Assembly (NCBI RefSeq): GCF_024500045.1
Contig: NZ_JTEO01000006.1
Location: 1-64,000, forward strand
Source of the DNA: Methanolobus chelungpuianus
GTDB taxonomy: Archaea; Halobacteriota; Methanosarcinia; Methanosarcinales; Methanosarcinaceae
Reading direction: 5' to 3'
Length of the DNA: 64,000 nt
The stretch's first letter is position 1; each line of letters opens with the position of its first letter. The notes under the pieces were generated by a model. That model was given only the letters and a program-made list of their open reading frames with translations, was not told the origin of the DNA and did not search any database. Below, one piece after another: positions 13,083 through 19,444 of this stretch. A program made the translations under genes and the position numbers.

Positions 13083-13259
13083 TTTTGTTCCTCTTCCGTA
13101 TAAAGTACCTTTTATTGCATGTCCCTATAGCAGGCACTTTTAGCTTGGTGAGCTGGCTTTATTAATTTATCTATAGTGAGAATAATTTCTTCCCGGCAAG
13201 CCATCCTCTCAAATCAAGGCAATTCATGCCATTTGGTTAAGTGCACAACTGAACTTGAA

Positions 13260-13272
13260 TACCTTAATATAT
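13260..13272 (+). promoter_or_regulatory. TATA box of the cobalamin operon
   Basis: TACCTTAATATAT lies about 25-30 bp upstream of the TTG at 13293 and the GTG at 13302. This spacing places the transcription start at or next to the start codon and argues against the longer frame that opens at 13176. Confidence 0.45.
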
Positions 13273-13292: not shown

Positions 13293-14795
13293 TTGATTAT
13301 TGTGTCTGAAGATGAAAACCGGTTTCCTTTTAAACACTATCTACTGGATTTATCTCCCTGTATGCGCGGAGGGCAGGCTGGTCAGCTTACCGGAGGTGAG
13401 GAAATCCCGGAATCAGATATTCTTGATTTCAGTGTGAGCCTGAATCCCCTGGGAAGCCCCTTCAGGTATGAGAGAAGCGGCCTTGATATGGTTGCTATCC
13501 TGGAAAAAGCAGTGAGGAAGCTGGAACAATACCCGGACAACAGGTATCTCGAACTAAGGTCTGCAGCCTCCAGTTTTATCGGAAGCGGTGCCGGACCGGA
13601 CAATATAGTGCCCGGCAACGGTTCATGCGAATTGTTCAGGCTCGTACTTGAATCTGTCGCTGAGGAGGGGGACATGGTCATAGTCCCGATGCCCTGTGCT
13701 GCCGAATACTACCGTACCTGTGAGGCCCTCGGTGCCGTGCCTCATAAGATCCGGCTGCATGAGATGCTCCATCTGCCAAAGAGGACGCTTGAGAAGGCGA
13801 AAGTGATCTTTTTCTCCAATCCCAATAATCCCACAGGTGAACTGGTATCAAGGGACAGGATCCGTGAATTTGCCCTAAGGTGTGCAGAACAGGGAACGCT
13901 GCTTGTGGTTGACGAGTCATTCATAGAGCTGTCGGATCCCTCGCAGAGCGTTGCAGACCTTGCTGCGAACAACGATCATCTATTAGTGACCCGTTCCATA
14001 GTGAACGCTTTCTCCCTCCCGGGTATCAGGTTCTCCTATGCTGTTACATCCGTTCCCATGGCTTCACGACTGAACGCTGCAAGGCTTTCCTGGAATATCG
14101 GAGCGGTCACTGAAGAGATTGCCGGGGCTGTTCTTGGCATGGAGGGCGGTGCGAACAGCGACTACCTTGTCAGGTCGCGTAATTTTATCCGGGAGGAGCG
14201 CCAGTATATCAGTGATCGCCTTTCATCCCTGTACGGCTTTAATCCTCTCAAAAGCAGTGCCAACTTCATCCTGGTGAACATGGAAGAGCATTTCATGGAT
14301 TCGGAACGCTTCACAAAGTGTTTTGCATCCCGCGGGATCCTTGTCAGGGAATGCAGCGATTTCTTTGAAGGGCAAAAGCACTTTATACGGATATCGGTAC
14401 GCTCAAGGGATGATTTCGAGAAACTGATCTCCAGGCTGGACGAGGTCTACGCTGAGTCAAGCCGTGAAGAGGCCAGGGAAAAGCTTGAGGAGACCCTTGA
14501 ACAAGGTCCTGAGAGGATCGCTGCGACCAGAGGAACATGCGGATACTATCCCTGCCATTTCCTTGGTCAGGACTGTACCTTTTGCTTCTGTCCCTTCTAT
14601 GCATGCAATGACGAGAGGACAGGCGGGAAATGGATAGACAGTGCAACCGGCGGCAAAGTATGGAGCTGTGAGCATTGCACACTGCTTCACCAGCCACAGG
14701 TGGCGGAGAAGATACTGGATGTCCTCATGGAGGACGGAGATACGGATGAGAATATCCGCAAAGCATGGGCAGAGGTGGTCATGCCCCTTCTTTAA
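13293..14795 (+). CDS. CobD paralogue lacking the PLP lysine, with Cys-rich domain
   Basis: About 500 residues, colinear with the intact CobD that follows. The N-terminal ~375 residues have the fold-type I aminotransferase motifs ([40 protein letters not shown], and HFIRISVR with the substrate Arg). At the Schiff-base position the sequence is [13 protein letters not shown], with Asn (codon 14004-14006, residue 238) where the neighbour has Lys. The C-terminal ~90 residues form the Cys-rich metal domain ([20 protein letters not shown] ... CEHC). As I recall, M. mazei CobD was described as a bifunctional threonine kinase/threonine-phosphate decarboxylase with metal centres in this domain. This copy cannot decarboxylate conventionally and may be kinase-only or a partner subunit (inference). 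Start chosen by alignment to the next gene and the TATA spacing; GTG 13302 is an alternative. Confidence 0.75.
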
Positions 14796-14876: not shown

Positions 14877-16379
14877 GTGATCGTTGTGACAGAAAATACG
14901 CCATCTCTTCCGGTAAAAGAGCATCTGTTAAAGTTCGAGCCCAGTGCTCACGGTGGACTTATAAGAAAAAACTCCCAGAAATACGCAATTCCGGAGAGTG
15001 AGATCCTTGATGCCAGTGCAAGCCTGAACCCCTTCGGTACTCCCTTCGAGTACCCTTATACAGGCCTTGTACTCCGGAACCTGCTGGATAAAGGCCTTGA
15101 GAAAATGGAACAGTATCCTGATAACCGCTATCTTGAGTTCAAGGAGGCTGCAGCAAGGTTCACAGGCCTGGGCACAAGGCCTGAGAACATAATCCCGGGC
15201 AACGGCTCTACGGAGATTATCCGGCTTGTTGCGGAATGTGTCATCGGGAAGGGGGATGTCGTACTTATACCGCAGCCCACTTTCAGCGAATATGAGGTCC
15301 AGTGCAAGGTGCTTGGTGCGACGATCAGGTACATCCGGCAGGAAGATCTGCTGCAGCTTGACGGCAGTGTGCTTGATGAAGCAAAGATGATATTTGTCTG
15401 CAATCCCAATAATCCAACCGGGCGGCTCCTCAACCGGGAGCAGGTGAAAGCCATTGCTGATAAGTGCGCCCGCCATAGGACCATCCTTTTCCTTGACGAG
15501 GCTTTCATAGAGCTCGCTGATCCCTCCCAGAGCGTGGCAGACATGGTCGAGGGCAATGAGTATTTATTCATACAGCGCTCCCTCACCAAAGCTTTCGCGA
15601 TTCCCGGGATCAGGATGGGTTTCGGAATCGCAGGCACCAGGCTTGCAAAGGTGCTTGACAATGCAAGGCTCTCGTGGAACCTTGGCTGCATAGCCGACAC
15701 GGTGGCAACCGCCCTTCTCAATATGGAAGGTGGCGTGAACAGTAAATACCTGAAGGATTCCAGGGATTTCATCAGGGGAGAACGGGACTACCTGATGCAG
15801 AAGCTTAACCGCCGGGGCTTCAAGCCGATCGAGAGCACTGTGAACTACATTTATGTGGATATCTCCGGTTTCTCAATGGATTCCACGGAACTGACCGAGC
15901 GCCTGGCCGCCCATGGTGTGCTCATCCGCGACTGCAGTTCTTTCCAGGAGTCCGGGAAGGACCATATCAGGGTAGCTGTCAGGACCAGGGAGGAGAACAA
16001 GCGCATAGTTGATACTATCCGGCTGGTGGTCTCGGAATGGGGCAGCGATAAGGCTGATTCCACGCTCCATGATAATCTGGCAAAGGCCGCAGAATCCGGA
16101 AGGCTTGGCAGCAACCTCAGCTGCGATTACTATCCCTGCCACTTCGAAGGTCAGGACTGCACTTTCTGTTTCTGTCCCTTCTACCCATGCAAGGACGAGC
16201 GCACAGGCGGCCAGTGGGTAGAGAGCTCGGCCGGCGGGAAGGTATGGAGCTGCCTGTACTGTGAGATGGTCCACAGGCCGGAGATAGTTGACGATATGCT
16301 CTCTGTGCTCACAGAGAAGGGCATCAGTGAGGAAAGCGTGAAGGAAGCCTGGAAGAAAGCCATGGGGAGCCGTTTATGA
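14877..16379 (+). CDS. cobD: L-threonine-phosphate decarboxylase CobD with Cys-rich domain
   Basis: 500 residues. The fold-type I PLP domain is complete: IPGNGSTEIIRLV, VCNPNNPTGRLL, FLDEAFIELADPSQS and RSLTKAFAIPGIR with Schiff-base Lys238. The C-terminal domain carries [20 protein letters not shown] and CLYC, a metal-binding extension seen in methanosarcinal CobD. The product, (R)-1-amino-2-propanol phosphate, links the corrin ring to the nucleotide loop. A TATA box (TTTATAAAAA at 14831) indicates its own promoter, and GTAGGG precedes the GTG start. Its last codons overlap cbiB (ATGA). Confidence 0.88.
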   Translation: MIVVTENTPSLPVKEHLLKFEPSAHGGLIRKNSQKYAIPESEILDASASLNPFGTPFEYPYTGLVLRNLLDKGLEKMEQYPDNRYLEFKEAAARFTGLGTRPENIIPGNGSTEIIRLVAECVIGKGDVVLIPQPTFSEYEVQCKVLGATIRYIRQEDLLQLDGSVLDEAKMIFVCNPNNPTGRLLNREQVKAIADKCARHRTILFLDEAFIELADPSQSVADMVEGNEYLFIQRSLTKAFAIPGIRMGFGIAGTRLAKVLDNARLSWNLGCIADTVATALLNMEGGVNSKYLKDSRDFIRGERDYLMQKLNRRGFKPIESTVNYIYVDISGFSMDSTELTERLAAHGVLIRDCSSFQESGKDHIRVAVRTREENKRIVDTIRLVVSEWGSDKADSTLHDNLAKAAESGRLGSNLSCDYYPCHFEGQDCTFCFCPFYPCKDERTGGQWVESSAGGKVWSCLYCEMVHRPEIVDDMLSVLTEKGISEESVKEAWKKAMGSRL

Positions 16380-17362
16380 TAGTGCCGGTGATGCCGGGGG
16401 CAGAGGATCTCATAATCATCCTGCTCATGGCCTTTGCCTATGACCTCCTGCTCAACGAGCCTCCCTCTGCCATTCATCCCGTGGTCTGGATGGGAAGGAT
16501 CATCCACAGGCTGAAGGAGGCGGCTCCTGCAAGCAACAGGAGGCTGTACGGCATATTCCTCGCGCTGTTCACGATCGGCTTTGCATCCGCCCTGGCCTAC
16601 GCAGTGCTACTTGTCCTTAGCGTGGAATCAGTGCCAAGGATACTGCGCCTCCTGGTGGCTGCATACTTCCTCAAGGCGACTTTCGCGGTCAGGTGCCTGT
16701 TCGAGGCCGGGCGCAAGGTGAGCAGCAGACTTGATGCAGGCAAGCTGGATGAAGCACGCAGGGAAGTATCCATGTACGTGAGCAGGGATACCTCGAAGCT
16801 GGATGAGAACCATGTATCTTCCGCTATCATCGAGACGACATCCGAGAACTATGTGGACGGCATACTTAGTCCCCTGATGTTCTACGCCTTCTTCGGACCC
16901 TTCGGGCTGATCGCTGCCTATGTTTTCAAGGCTGCGAGCACCCTGGATTCAATGGTGGGCTACAAGAACGAAAAGTACCTGAAGCTCGGCTGGTTCTCGG
17001 CAAGGACGGATGACGTTTTCAACTGGCTGCCTGCACGCATATCTCCTATCTTTATCTCCGTTTCAGCGCTAATCGTCAATATCTTTTCAGGGGACCGGAA
17101 AAAACTGAGTGCTTCGGATGCATTCAGGCTTGGGCTGGCAGAGGGACTGATGACCCCATCGCCAAATTCCGGATATCCCATGGCGTCCACTGCGGGCGCC
17201 CTGAGAGTAAGGCTTGAGAAACCCAATACATATCGCCTGGGTGAAAGATATACGGATTACCCGGTGGCAGAGGACATCTGGCTGGCTTCGCGGCTTATCC
17301 TGACCGCTTCATTTATGGCAGTTGGTGCTTCAGCATTGGTAATCTATCTGATCTACATCTGA
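16376..17362 (+). CDS. cbiB: Adenosylcobinamide-phosphate synthase CbiB
   Basis: A 328-residue polytopic membrane protein. Family signatures include LLNEPPSAIHPVVWMG near the N-terminus, SRDTSKLDENHVSSAIIETTSENYVDG in the middle, a YKNEKY segment, and PSPNSGYPMASTAGAL near the C-terminus. It joins aminopropanol phosphate (the CobD product) to adenosylcobyric acid. Its ATG overlaps the cobD stop by four bases, so the two are coupled. Length and topology match the family. Confidence 0.92.
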   Translation: MIVPVMPGAEDLIIILLMAFAYDLLLNEPPSAIHPVVWMGRIIHRLKEAAPASNRRLYGIFLALFTIGFASALAYAVLLVLSVESVPRILRLLVAAYFLKATFAVRCLFEAGRKVSSRLDAGKLDEARREVSMYVSRDTSKLDENHVSSAIIETTSENYVDGILSPLMFYAFFGPFGLIAAYVFKAASTLDSMVGYKNEKYLKLGWFSARTDDVFNWLPARISPIFISVSALIVNIFSGDRKKLSASDAFRLGLAEGLMTPSPNSGYPMASTAGALRVRLEKPNTYRLGERYTDYPVAEDIWLASRLILTASFMAVGASALVIYLIYI

Positions 17363-17407: not shown

Positions 17408-18010
17408 ATGGCAATGAAATTATCGGACATACAATCTAAAAACCTCAAGGAAGGACAGCCTGAGGAGCTGGAGGGTGATATCACCCATGATATCATTGAT
17501 ATCCTGAATGATGAAGGTATCACCGTGGAGATGCTTGTCGATACTGCACTGGCCTTATATGCTCCGCATCCGGGTATCGAGACAAGGGAACTTGCCGAGG
17601 AAAGGTTCCTGGAAGAACTGCACATAGCCCTTTCCGATCCCAATCTCTGCATGCTTGTCTATGCGGGCGTGCTGCTTGAGAGGGAGGGTGAGGCAGGCAC
17701 TCTTCCAAATATAAGCAAGAGCTCCTATGAGAAGGACCTGACCTTCCTGATAGTGGATGAGGTCCTGGGTATGAGCATTGCCAAGTACATAAGTGGTGAT
17801 AAGGGCATATTCGAGTTCGTGCGCTTCGACAAGCAGAAGCCGGGCATTCTTGCCGAGCTTGGTCCTTTCATGGACGATGTGATAGGAGGGCTTATAGGCG
17901 GCGTGTCTGCCAGCATGTATACAAGGAGCATGGCAGAGGCTGCCAGGAAGGATATGGCCGGCAAGAAAAAGAGGCATGACGGCGGCCTGGGCGGTGTGAT
18001 CGCAGGATGA
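17408..18010 (+). CDS. cobZ: Alpha-ribazole-5'-phosphate phosphatase CobZ
   Basis: About 200 residues, of the PgpA-like phosphatase family to which M. mazei CobZ belongs: ITVEMLVDTALALYAPHPGIETRELAEERF near the N-terminus, LVYAGVLLEREGE centrally, and a C-terminal DDVIGGLIGGVSASMY helix. It removes the phosphate from alpha-ribazole phosphate (or from adenosylcobalamin phosphate), the archaeal substitute for CobC. It is embedded between cbiB and cobS as in M. mazei and shares four bases with cobS. The start could be ATG 17408 or 17414; TTTAAATA upstream may be a TATA box. Confidence 0.85.
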   Translation: MAMKLSDIQSKNLKEGQPEELEGDITHDIIDILNDEGITVEMLVDTALALYAPHPGIETRELAEERFLEELHIALSDPNLCMLVYAGVLLEREGEAGTLPNISKSSYEKDLTFLIVDEVLGMSIAKYISGDKGIFEFVRFDKQKPGILAELGPFMDDVIGGLIGGVSASMYTRSMAEAARKDMAGKKKRHDGGLGGVIAG

Positions 18011-18819
18011 ACGACTTCTTGCTGGCCCTGCGCTCCAGTTTCGGTTTCCTTTCCACCATCCCTGTGGGGATCACCATGGAAGGTCTTGATGAGTTCTTCA
18101 AGCGGACCTACCTTCACATAGTGGTTGGGATAGTGCTCGGCCTCCTGATAGGGGCTGCGGCAGTTATCCTCCATTCCTTCCTTTCCCCCCAGCTTACTGC
18201 GGTTTTCATTATTGTGTTCGTTTATTACATGACCGGACTGAACCACCTGGACGGCATTGCCGATATGGGGGACGGCCTGACCGCCCATGGCTCCCGTGAG
18301 AAGAAGCTCAAGGCGCTCAAGGATATGTCCCTGGGGATTGGCGGTGTCTCCTATGCGGCCCTGACCCTGCTGGCATTCTATGCAGCCCTTATATCGCTTC
18401 TTACCAGTGAGTTCACGCTTCCTGAGGGTGTAAGCATAGCAACTGTCATTTTCCTCGCGCTCTTCGTTGCTGAGGTCGGCGCCATGCAGTCCATGCTTAC
18501 GATCGCTGCATTCGGGAAGTCCATACATGAAGGCCTTGGCTCTATTCTTGTGAAGAACACCACCCTTCCGAAATACCTGCTGGGTTTCGCCATGGGAGTT
18601 GTGGCCTGCACCCTGGCTTTCTGGTATATCGGCCTGCCCCTGGTGGGCGCCCTGGCATTTGTAGCAGCCATAGTGTCGGCACTGGTGGTCATTAACATAA
18701 GCAACAGACACTTTGGCGGTGTCAACGGTGATATAATAGGCGCATCCAATGAGACTGGCAGGGTCATTGCACTGGTGGCTGTGTTCCTTGCCCTGAAGTA
18801 CGGCCTGGGAGGTATCTGA
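18007..18819 (+). CDS. cobS: Adenosylcobinamide-GDP ribazoletransferase CobS
   Basis: A 270-residue membrane protein with the CobS motif GLNHLDGIADMGDGLTAHGSREKK (residues ~78-101) preceding six or more hydrophobic segments, and the C-terminal NRHFGGVNGDIIGASNETGR motif. It condenses adenosylcobinamide-GDP with alpha-ribazole (phosphate), completing cobalamin assembly at the membrane. Its ATG overlaps the cobZ stop and it ends one base before cobY, so tight coupling is expected. Confidence 0.92.
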   Translation: MNDFLLALRSSFGFLSTIPVGITMEGLDEFFKRTYLHIVVGIVLGLLIGAAAVILHSFLSPQLTAVFIIVFVYYMTGLNHLDGIADMGDGLTAHGSREKKLKALKDMSLGIGGVSYAALTLLAFYAALISLLTSEFTLPEGVSIATVIFLALFVAEVGAMQSMLTIAAFGKSIHEGLGSILVKNTTLPKYLLGFAMGVVACTLAFWYIGLPLVGALAFVAAIVSALVVINISNRHFGGVNGDIIGASNETGRVIALVAVFLALKYGLGGI

Positions 18820-18820
18820 G

Positions 18821-19444
18821 ATGGATGTGATAATCATGGCCGGTGGCTTTGGCAGCAGGCTCGGGATGGGCGAGAAGCCCACTGTGGAACTCCTTGGAAA
18901 TCCCCTCATCTCCTATGTGATCGACGCCCTTGAGAAGACTCCCGAAGTGGGGAAGATACATGTTGCTGTCTCCCCCGCAACGCCCGCCACGGGCGGTGTT
19001 GTCCTCAGCCGCTATGACGGCCGGGTGGGAGTGATAAATACCGGCGGAGGCAATTACGTTGCAGACATGGTCCAGGCAGTGAAGGATGCGGGCATAAACG
19101 AACCGGTGCTCATCATGATGTCTGACATACCCCTGCTGAACCCGGGGATAATAGGGAGCATCATTGAGAAATATGAAACCTGCGGGACTCCCGCAATGTC
19201 CGTGTTCTCTCCGATATGGGTGTGCAAAGGCCTTGGTATCAGGCCTGATACGGTCTTCAACTGGGAAGGTAAGCTCATAGTTCCTGCAGGGGTCAATATC
19301 CTGGACGGGAAGGATGTGGAAAAGGAGCAGGCCTACGTCAGCCTCATACTGGAGGATGTCGAGCTTGCATTGAATGTGAATACTGCGGCCGACCTTGAGA
19401 AATGCAAGGAGATGCTGATGGAAAGATCTGCCGGGAAGGAATAA
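18821..19444 (+). CDS. cobY: GTP:adenosylcobinamide-phosphate guanylyltransferase CobY
   Basis: A 207-residue nucleotidyltransferase with the MobA-like signature MAGGFGSRLGMGEKPTVEL at residues 6-24, SDIPLL (the metal-binding Asp) near 103 and ALNVNTAADLEKCKE at the end. CobY is the archaeal, non-orthologous replacement of CobU and activates adenosylcobinamide phosphate with GTP. It is the last gene of the cobalamin operon, one base after cobS. Confidence 0.9.
   Translation: MDVIIMAGGFGSRLGMGEKPTVELLGNPLISYVIDALEKTPEVGKIHVAVSPATPATGGVVLSRYDGRVGVINTGGGNYVADMVQAVKDAGINEPVLIMMSDIPLLNPGIIGSIIEKYETCGTPAMSVFSPIWVCKGLGIRPDTVFNWEGKLIVPAGVNILDGKDVEKEQAYVSLILEDVELALNVNTAADLEKCKEMLMERSAGKE

Follow-up and report, generated by a model that had tools for sequence, protein, structure and literature searches.

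A CobD paralogue without the PLP lysine, retained beside a canonical CobD in the cobamide cluster of Methanolobus chelungpuianus

The 64,000-nucleotide stretch of Methanolobus chelungpuianus DNA analysed here (the window) carries two tandem genes for CobD-like proteins, the first of which (copy 1) is, as we strongly infer from its sequence, a CobD paralogue that gave up PLP chemistry. Selection and synteny argue strongly that copy 1 has been kept functional in the aminopropanol-phosphate branch of cobamide synthesis, and because its catalytic residues were repeatedly lost while the Cys-rich tail stayed intact, it probably has another role in the same B12 assembly step. The reading that we favour, at a probability of roughly 0.45, is that copy 1 would be a non-decarboxylating CobD partner in the supply of aminopropanol phosphate to CbiB. 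The making of L-Thr-P in archaea and the handover of aminopropanol phosphate to CbiB are an open part of B12 synthesis, and a natural series of CobD proteins that have no PLP site and keep the metal domain separates the two functions, thus making the kinase, decarboxylase and docking roles directly testable.

Tandem CobD genes in a cobamide cluster

The two open reading frames and their diagnostic positions, with columns mapped by alignment to Salmonella CobD and E. coli HisC, are the following:

13293..14795, + strand: copy 1, CobD-like protein of 500 aa in which the PLP lysine is missing (Pfam Aminotran_1_2 plus zf-like)
13695..13700, + strand: Cys135-Ala136 instead of Thr-Phe in copy 1 (PTF to PCA)
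13917..13919, + strand: Ser209 instead of Ala in copy 1 (DEAF to DESF), at the other face of the PLP ring
14004..14006, + strand: Asn238 (AAC) at the position of the PLP Schiff-base lysine in copy 1
14529..14735, + strand: Cys-rich C-terminal domain of copy 1 (PF04071, zf-like), ten Cys/His invariant
14877..16379, + strand: copy 2, canonical lysine-bearing (Lys+) CobD (L-Thr-P decarboxylase of the M. mazei MM2060 type; TIGR01140)
15588..15590, + strand: Lys238 (AAA), the PLP lysine of copy 2, within RSLTKAFAIPGIR
16107..16316, + strand: Cys-rich domain of copy 2 (PF04071)

The start codon of copy 1 is uncertain, as TTG at 13293, GTG at 13302 and an upstream in-frame GTG at 13176 all fit. The two proteins are 45% identical and share the Pfam domains Aminotran_1_2 and Cys-rich zf-like PF04071; these are the only Pfam domains found in copy 1, from which a GHMP kinase domain of the PduX type is absent. 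Against the cut-off of 290.55 bits for the NCBIfam CobD model TIGR01140, copy 1 scores 236.7 bits (under) and copy 2 296.2 bits (over). In an AF2 model of copy 1 the fold-type I domain is intact, at a pLDDT of ~90 over most of its length (82 for the whole model), and HisC and Salmonella CobD are the closest PDB structures; the model is homologue-driven and silent on cofactor binding, and the Cys-rich region is poorly predicted in it.

Copy 1 is preceded by a promoter-like element, and copy 2 is followed by further cobamide genes:

13255..13271, + strand: TATA-like element TTGAATACCTTAATATA, ~30 nt upstream of copy 1, conserved in the Methanolobus loci compared
16376..17362, + strand: cbiB, AdoCbi-P synthase, which consumes aminopropanol phosphate
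17408..18010, + strand: cobZ, alpha-ribazole phosphatase (TIGR03161, over cut-off)
18007..18819, + strand: cobS, AdoCbi-GDP ribazoletransferase
18821..19444, + strand: cobY-like AdoCbi-P guanylyltransferase, assigned by position in the conserved cluster (TIGR00454 and NF045495 both under cut-off)

The order copy 1 - copy 2 - cbiB - cobZ - cobS - cobY is common to the window and to Methanolobus and Methanomethylovorans relatives. In Methanohalophilus, the gene without the lysine (Lys-less) itself lies directly 5' of cbiB-cobZ-cobS-cobY, and the Lys+ gene is elsewhere, about 20-26 kb off where both are on one contig. Together with the gene order of the window, this implies that the Lys-less protein remains in the cobamide cluster after PLP chemistry has been lost. 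A shared promoter regulon was rejected, since the TATA-like motif shows no excess elsewhere in the genome; a PADLOC search gave no match.

Loss of the PLP pocket beyond the lysine

Residue roles follow those in the Salmonella CobD and HisC structures: we take Phe136, which aligns with Tyr110 of HisC, to be the residue that stacks on the PLP ring, Ala209 to be the one that cradles its other face, and Asp207 to be the partner of PLP N1. Lys238 and Phe136 are each found in 0/41 Lys-less proteins versus 108/108 Lys+ ones, and Ala209 in 0/41 (Ser in 41/41) versus 106/108; Ser209 is convergent across all Lys-less clades. Thr237 persists in 4, Asn179 in 29 and Asp207 in 39 of the 41 Lys-less proteins, and the Lys+ sequences keep Lys238, Phe136, Ala209, Thr237, Asn179 and Asp207 in 106-108 of 108. 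The initial annotation was right about the codons for residue 238 (AAC at 14004-14006, AAA at 15588-15590 in the adjoining paralogue) and about the C-terminal cysteines of copy 1, all ten Cys/His of that domain being present and invariant in 41/41 Lys-less proteins. Its further statement that the other PLP-pocket motifs are kept has to be withdrawn, given the PTF-to-PCA and DEAF-to-DESF changes and the absence of Phe136 and Ala209 from every Lys-less protein.

Though the cis ring contacts are gone, the Lys-less first copies of Methanolobus and Methanomethylovorans (clade B, see below) keep the trans-subunit residues Tyr80 and Trp267 (33/33 each), the substrate residues Arg366 (33/33), Arg352 (29/33) and His25 (30/32), and also Asp207 and Ser235 (33/33 each). 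By alignment, Tyr80 corresponds to Salmonella Tyr56*, Arg352 to Arg323, Arg366 to Arg337 and His25 to His8. Copy 1 of the window keeps Tyr80, Arg352 and Arg366; its residue 25 (13365-13367) is Arg, whereas all other aligned Methanolobus copies have His25. In the Lys-less proteins of Methanohalophilus (clade H), most substrate and trans residues are gone except Arg366 (8/8) and Arg352 (6/8), and 6 of the 8 copies lose Tyr80 (to Phe), Trp267, His25 and Arg246.

These patterns bear on the idea that copy 1 has kept decarboxylation, or a non-covalent use of PLP in a Lys-independent chemistry, which we regard as very improbable. Fold-type I enzymes with Lys mutated to Ala are able to bind PLP, and the constancy of Asp207 and Ser235 in clade B would suit such a chemistry, but no member retains Phe136 or Ala209, and position 238 is free of constraint (N, D, G, R, H, T, Y).

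Distribution and repeated loss of the lysine

At least two CobD copies are present in 27/27 Methanolobus genomes searched, and every first copy recovered from them is without the PLP lysine, as are the first copies of Methanomethylovorans; on these grounds a sequencing or assembly slip at position 238 was rejected. Methanosarcina almost always has one CobD copy, and two copies are found in Methanococcoides, Methanohalophilus, Methanohalobium and Methanomethylovorans. Alignment of homologues at residue 238, as the initial annotation had proposed, indicates more than chance variation: among 150 rows from the order, in which the window copy was entered twice, 108 have Lys and 42 do not (N 26, H 6, D 5, T 2 and one each of G, R and Y), the latter falling into separate, well-supported clades. 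Asn238 occurs in 24 of the 27 aligned Methanolobus copies. The residue that replaces Lys is thus free to vary, yet Lys itself is never found in the Lys-less clades.

In an IQ-TREE tree made without columns 136, 209, 237 and 238, clade B has support of 100/100 and clade H of 100/99, the latter grouping with a Lys+ second copy of Methanococcoides. A single origin of the loss, modelled by forcing all Lys-less sequences into one clade, was rejected (delta lnL 42.9, p-AU 0.0022); therefore, Lys was lost a second, independent time in Methanohalophilus. The tree has long branches, and attraction between them would join the Lys-less clades, not separate them.

A third, more degenerate Lys-less lineage, with nearly all pocket motifs gone and the Cys-rich domain intact, was observed in one Methanolobus (L185, 6657-8165, + strand) and one Methanomethylovorans (L186, 4945-6396, - strand). 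Its two proteins are 56% identical to each other and, in a quick tree, tentatively fall in neither Lys-less clade. The L186 gene lies near a CbiZ gene.

Selection on the two domains

Both domains of copy 1 evolve under purifying selection. In the N-domain, the median of pairwise dN/dS (Nei-Gojobori, own script) is 0.114 in Methanolobus copy 1 and 0.049 in copy 2; Methanomethylovorans copy 1 reaches 0.134, and the main Lys-less group of Methanohalophilus 0.204. The corresponding C-domain medians are 0.052, 0.056, 0.031 and 0.122. The Lys-less copies are functional proteins with a relaxed N-domain, whose constraint in copy 1 is ~2.3-fold looser than in copy 2, and with a C-domain that is unrelaxed in Methanolobus. 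Losses in clade B amount to 29 of the 104 N-domain positions that single-copy CobDs conserve, against 6 in its Lys+ partner, and in the C-domain to 4 of 41 such positions, against 5 in the partner.

A decaying pseudogene, or an error of sequencing or assembly, would be in line with the relaxed N-domain and with the broken second copies of some relatives. This explanation is nevertheless hardly credible and was rejected, given that dN/dS is far under 1, that the ORFs are intact in essentially all Methanolobus genomes, and that Asn238 is conserved among most Methanolobus copies and the C-domain in full.

The Cys-rich module outside CobD

PF04071 is present in 116/147 genomes across the phylum. 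In Methanosarcinales it is fused to CobD; in one family (f10) it has a gene of its own, which abuts or overlaps cbiB in 12/14 loci; and it is fused to CbiZ in 5/5 proteins tested. CbiB joins aminopropanol phosphate, which comes from CobD, to cobyric acid, which is regenerated by CbiZ. Because one module is common to both suppliers and adjoins the gene of the consumer, its distribution suggests that it serves in docking or handover at CbiB. Moreover, its fusion to CbiZ and its stand-alone position beside cbiB argue against a threonine-kinase domain and suggest instead that the module works at the CbiB step. The initial annotation had M. mazei CobD phosphorylating threonine with its metal domain, a premise left unsupported by the occurrence of the same domain on CbiZ and beside cbiB. 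The isolated C-terminal domain of MM2060 is reportedly inactive and not essential for the kinase, which likewise makes the metal domain an unsound basis for that activity. The title of the 2019 paper on MM2060 calls the metallocentres 'needed for optimal activity' only (Tavares et al., 2019). A docking role would fit the proposed membrane complex anchored by CbiB/CobS (PMC8092220), and in P. denitrificans the orthologues of CobD and CbiB (there named CobC and CobD, respectively) make up a single component (PMC6249242). The tie of the module to cbiB and cbiZ gives the domain a specific, testable role.

In two Methanothrix-type genomes (L241:3708-6188; L242:3739-6043), PF04071 is a separate ORF of ~95 aa that overlaps both cobD and cbiB. 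The stand-alone genes of one archaeal family (L244, L248-L260) lie directly 5' of cbiB with no cobD alongside, and the CbiZ-PF04071 fusions occur in other archaeal families of the phylum (L211, L214, L217, L224, L236). The fold predicted for the Cys-rich domain is of low confidence and has no PDB match.

Possible functions of copy 1

If copy 1 is a non-decarboxylating partner of CobD, its fold-type I domain would pair with a Lys+ CobD or with itself, still supplying trans-subunit and substrate-binding residues, and its Cys-rich, probably Fe-binding tail would serve the CbiB step, for instance by letting CobD dock on CbiB, a membrane enzyme, and pass aminopropanol phosphate to it. Both the pairing and the docking are inferred. 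In favour of such a partner are the extent of the PLP loss, which exceeds the lysine, the retention of Tyr80 and Trp267 throughout clade B, purifying selection, the invariant Cys/His, synteny with cbiB and the contexts of PF04071. Loss of catalytic residues in a fold under purifying selection, the mark of a pseudoenzyme partner, is what copy 1 displays. On the other hand, Tyr80 and Trp267 are lost in 6/8 Methanohalophilus copies, where the Lys+ gene is not adjoining, so trans-complementation cannot be the general function; the third lineage keeps almost no pocket; the kept substrate arginines are equally well accounted for by a kinase; and the Cys-rich fold prediction is weak.

Copy 1 could instead be a dedicated L-Thr kinase, a serious though less probable alternative: from a bifunctional ancestor, as in M. 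mazei, one copy would have lost decarboxylation after duplication, kept ATP-dependent phosphorylation of L-Thr and now feed L-Thr-P to copy 2. M. mazei CobD (MM2060) is presented in its published reports as a bifunctional L-Thr kinase/L-Thr-P decarboxylase (Tavares et al., 2018, 2019). A kinase would also agree with the retention of Arg352, Arg366 and His25 in clade B, with the place of the gene in the cobamide cluster, and with GHMP kinase counts of 4 in two-copy genomes versus 5 in Methanosarcina, with no obvious extra PduX; an additional GHMP (PduX-like) kinase was looked for in the two-copy genomes and none was found. However, no kinase motif or ATP site was identified in copy 1, and six Methanohalophilus copies lose His25, Tyr80, Trp267 and Arg246. 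In the Lys+ partner, a search for putative kinase residues lost reciprocally turned up only positions 46 and 232 of the N-domain and 413, 471, 478 and 498 of the linker and C-domain, and hence there is no clean sign of one activity moving wholly to copy 1. A broader proposal makes the Lys-less paralogue a fold-type I L-threonine kinase that works without PLP and has evolved from bifunctional CobD on at least two occasions. It seems unlikely; if true, ATP-dependent phosphorylation can take place on a fold-type I scaffold that has given up its cofactor. A kinase and a partner of copy 2, the two roles put forward in the initial annotation, remain the leading readings, although the retained pocket with which they were introduced does not.

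A PLP-free binding protein or sensor, which would regulate flux by binding L-Thr, L-Thr-P or aminopropanol phosphate in the former active-site pocket while the Cys-rich domain senses iron or redox state, is quite improbable. The phosphate- and carboxylate-binding residues kept without PLP ring contacts, the invariant metal ligands and the separate conserved TATA-like element 5' of copy 1 are consistent with it, but the ligand pocket is largely lost in Methanohalophilus and the third lineage, and copy 1 is without a regulatory domain.

Comparison with known systems

Similar to MM2060, copy 1 combines a fold-type I domain with a Cys-rich PF04071 domain whose ligands are intact, in the same gene cluster; it differs in having no PLP Lys, ring-stacking Phe or ring-cradling Ala, and it is copy 2 that resembles an orthologue. 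Single-copy CobDs of Methanosarcina can be aligned from end to end. With Salmonella enterica CobD (PDB 1lc5/1lc7/1lc8/1lkc), copy 1 shares the modelled fold (TM 0.86 on target), the phosphate/carboxylate arginines and the Tyr56* equivalent, but not the Schiff-base Lys; the Salmonella protein, in turn, has no Cys-rich tail, and PduX serves there as the kinase. The stand-alone PF04071 proteins beside cbiB and the CbiZ-PF04071 fusions contain the same module in the same cobamide context, with no fold-type I domain attached, unlike copy 1. Returning to copy 1 as a CobD partner, a precedent is the deoxyhypusine synthase of trypanosomatids, which is activated by a dead paralogue (PMC3663545). Here too, duplication was followed by loss of catalysis in one copy and conservation of both, whereas fold and pathway differ and activation by copy 1 would be hypothetical.

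L-Thr kinase (EC 2.7.1.177) still counts among the pathway gaps of haloarchaea, and a Haloferax cobD2 is mentioned in the same source (PMC8305020). No haloarchaeal Lys-less CobD was found: Lys is present in each of four short CobDs taken from other families in the phylum, and no second CobD copy was detected in the fetched regions.

Variants among relatives

One Methanolobus copy 1 (L031 / L051 / L187:5145-6581) has Asp238 and a 479-aa frame, the stretch that corresponds to the N-terminus being interrupted by in-frame stops. The second CobD copy appears frameshifted in one Methanococcoides and in one genome of another genus (G098:C1:216405-217873 and G077:C81:21257-22822). Additionally, Methanococcoides loci (L058 5953-9824, L060, L077) carry two CobD copies, both Lys+, separated by a second cobY-like gene.
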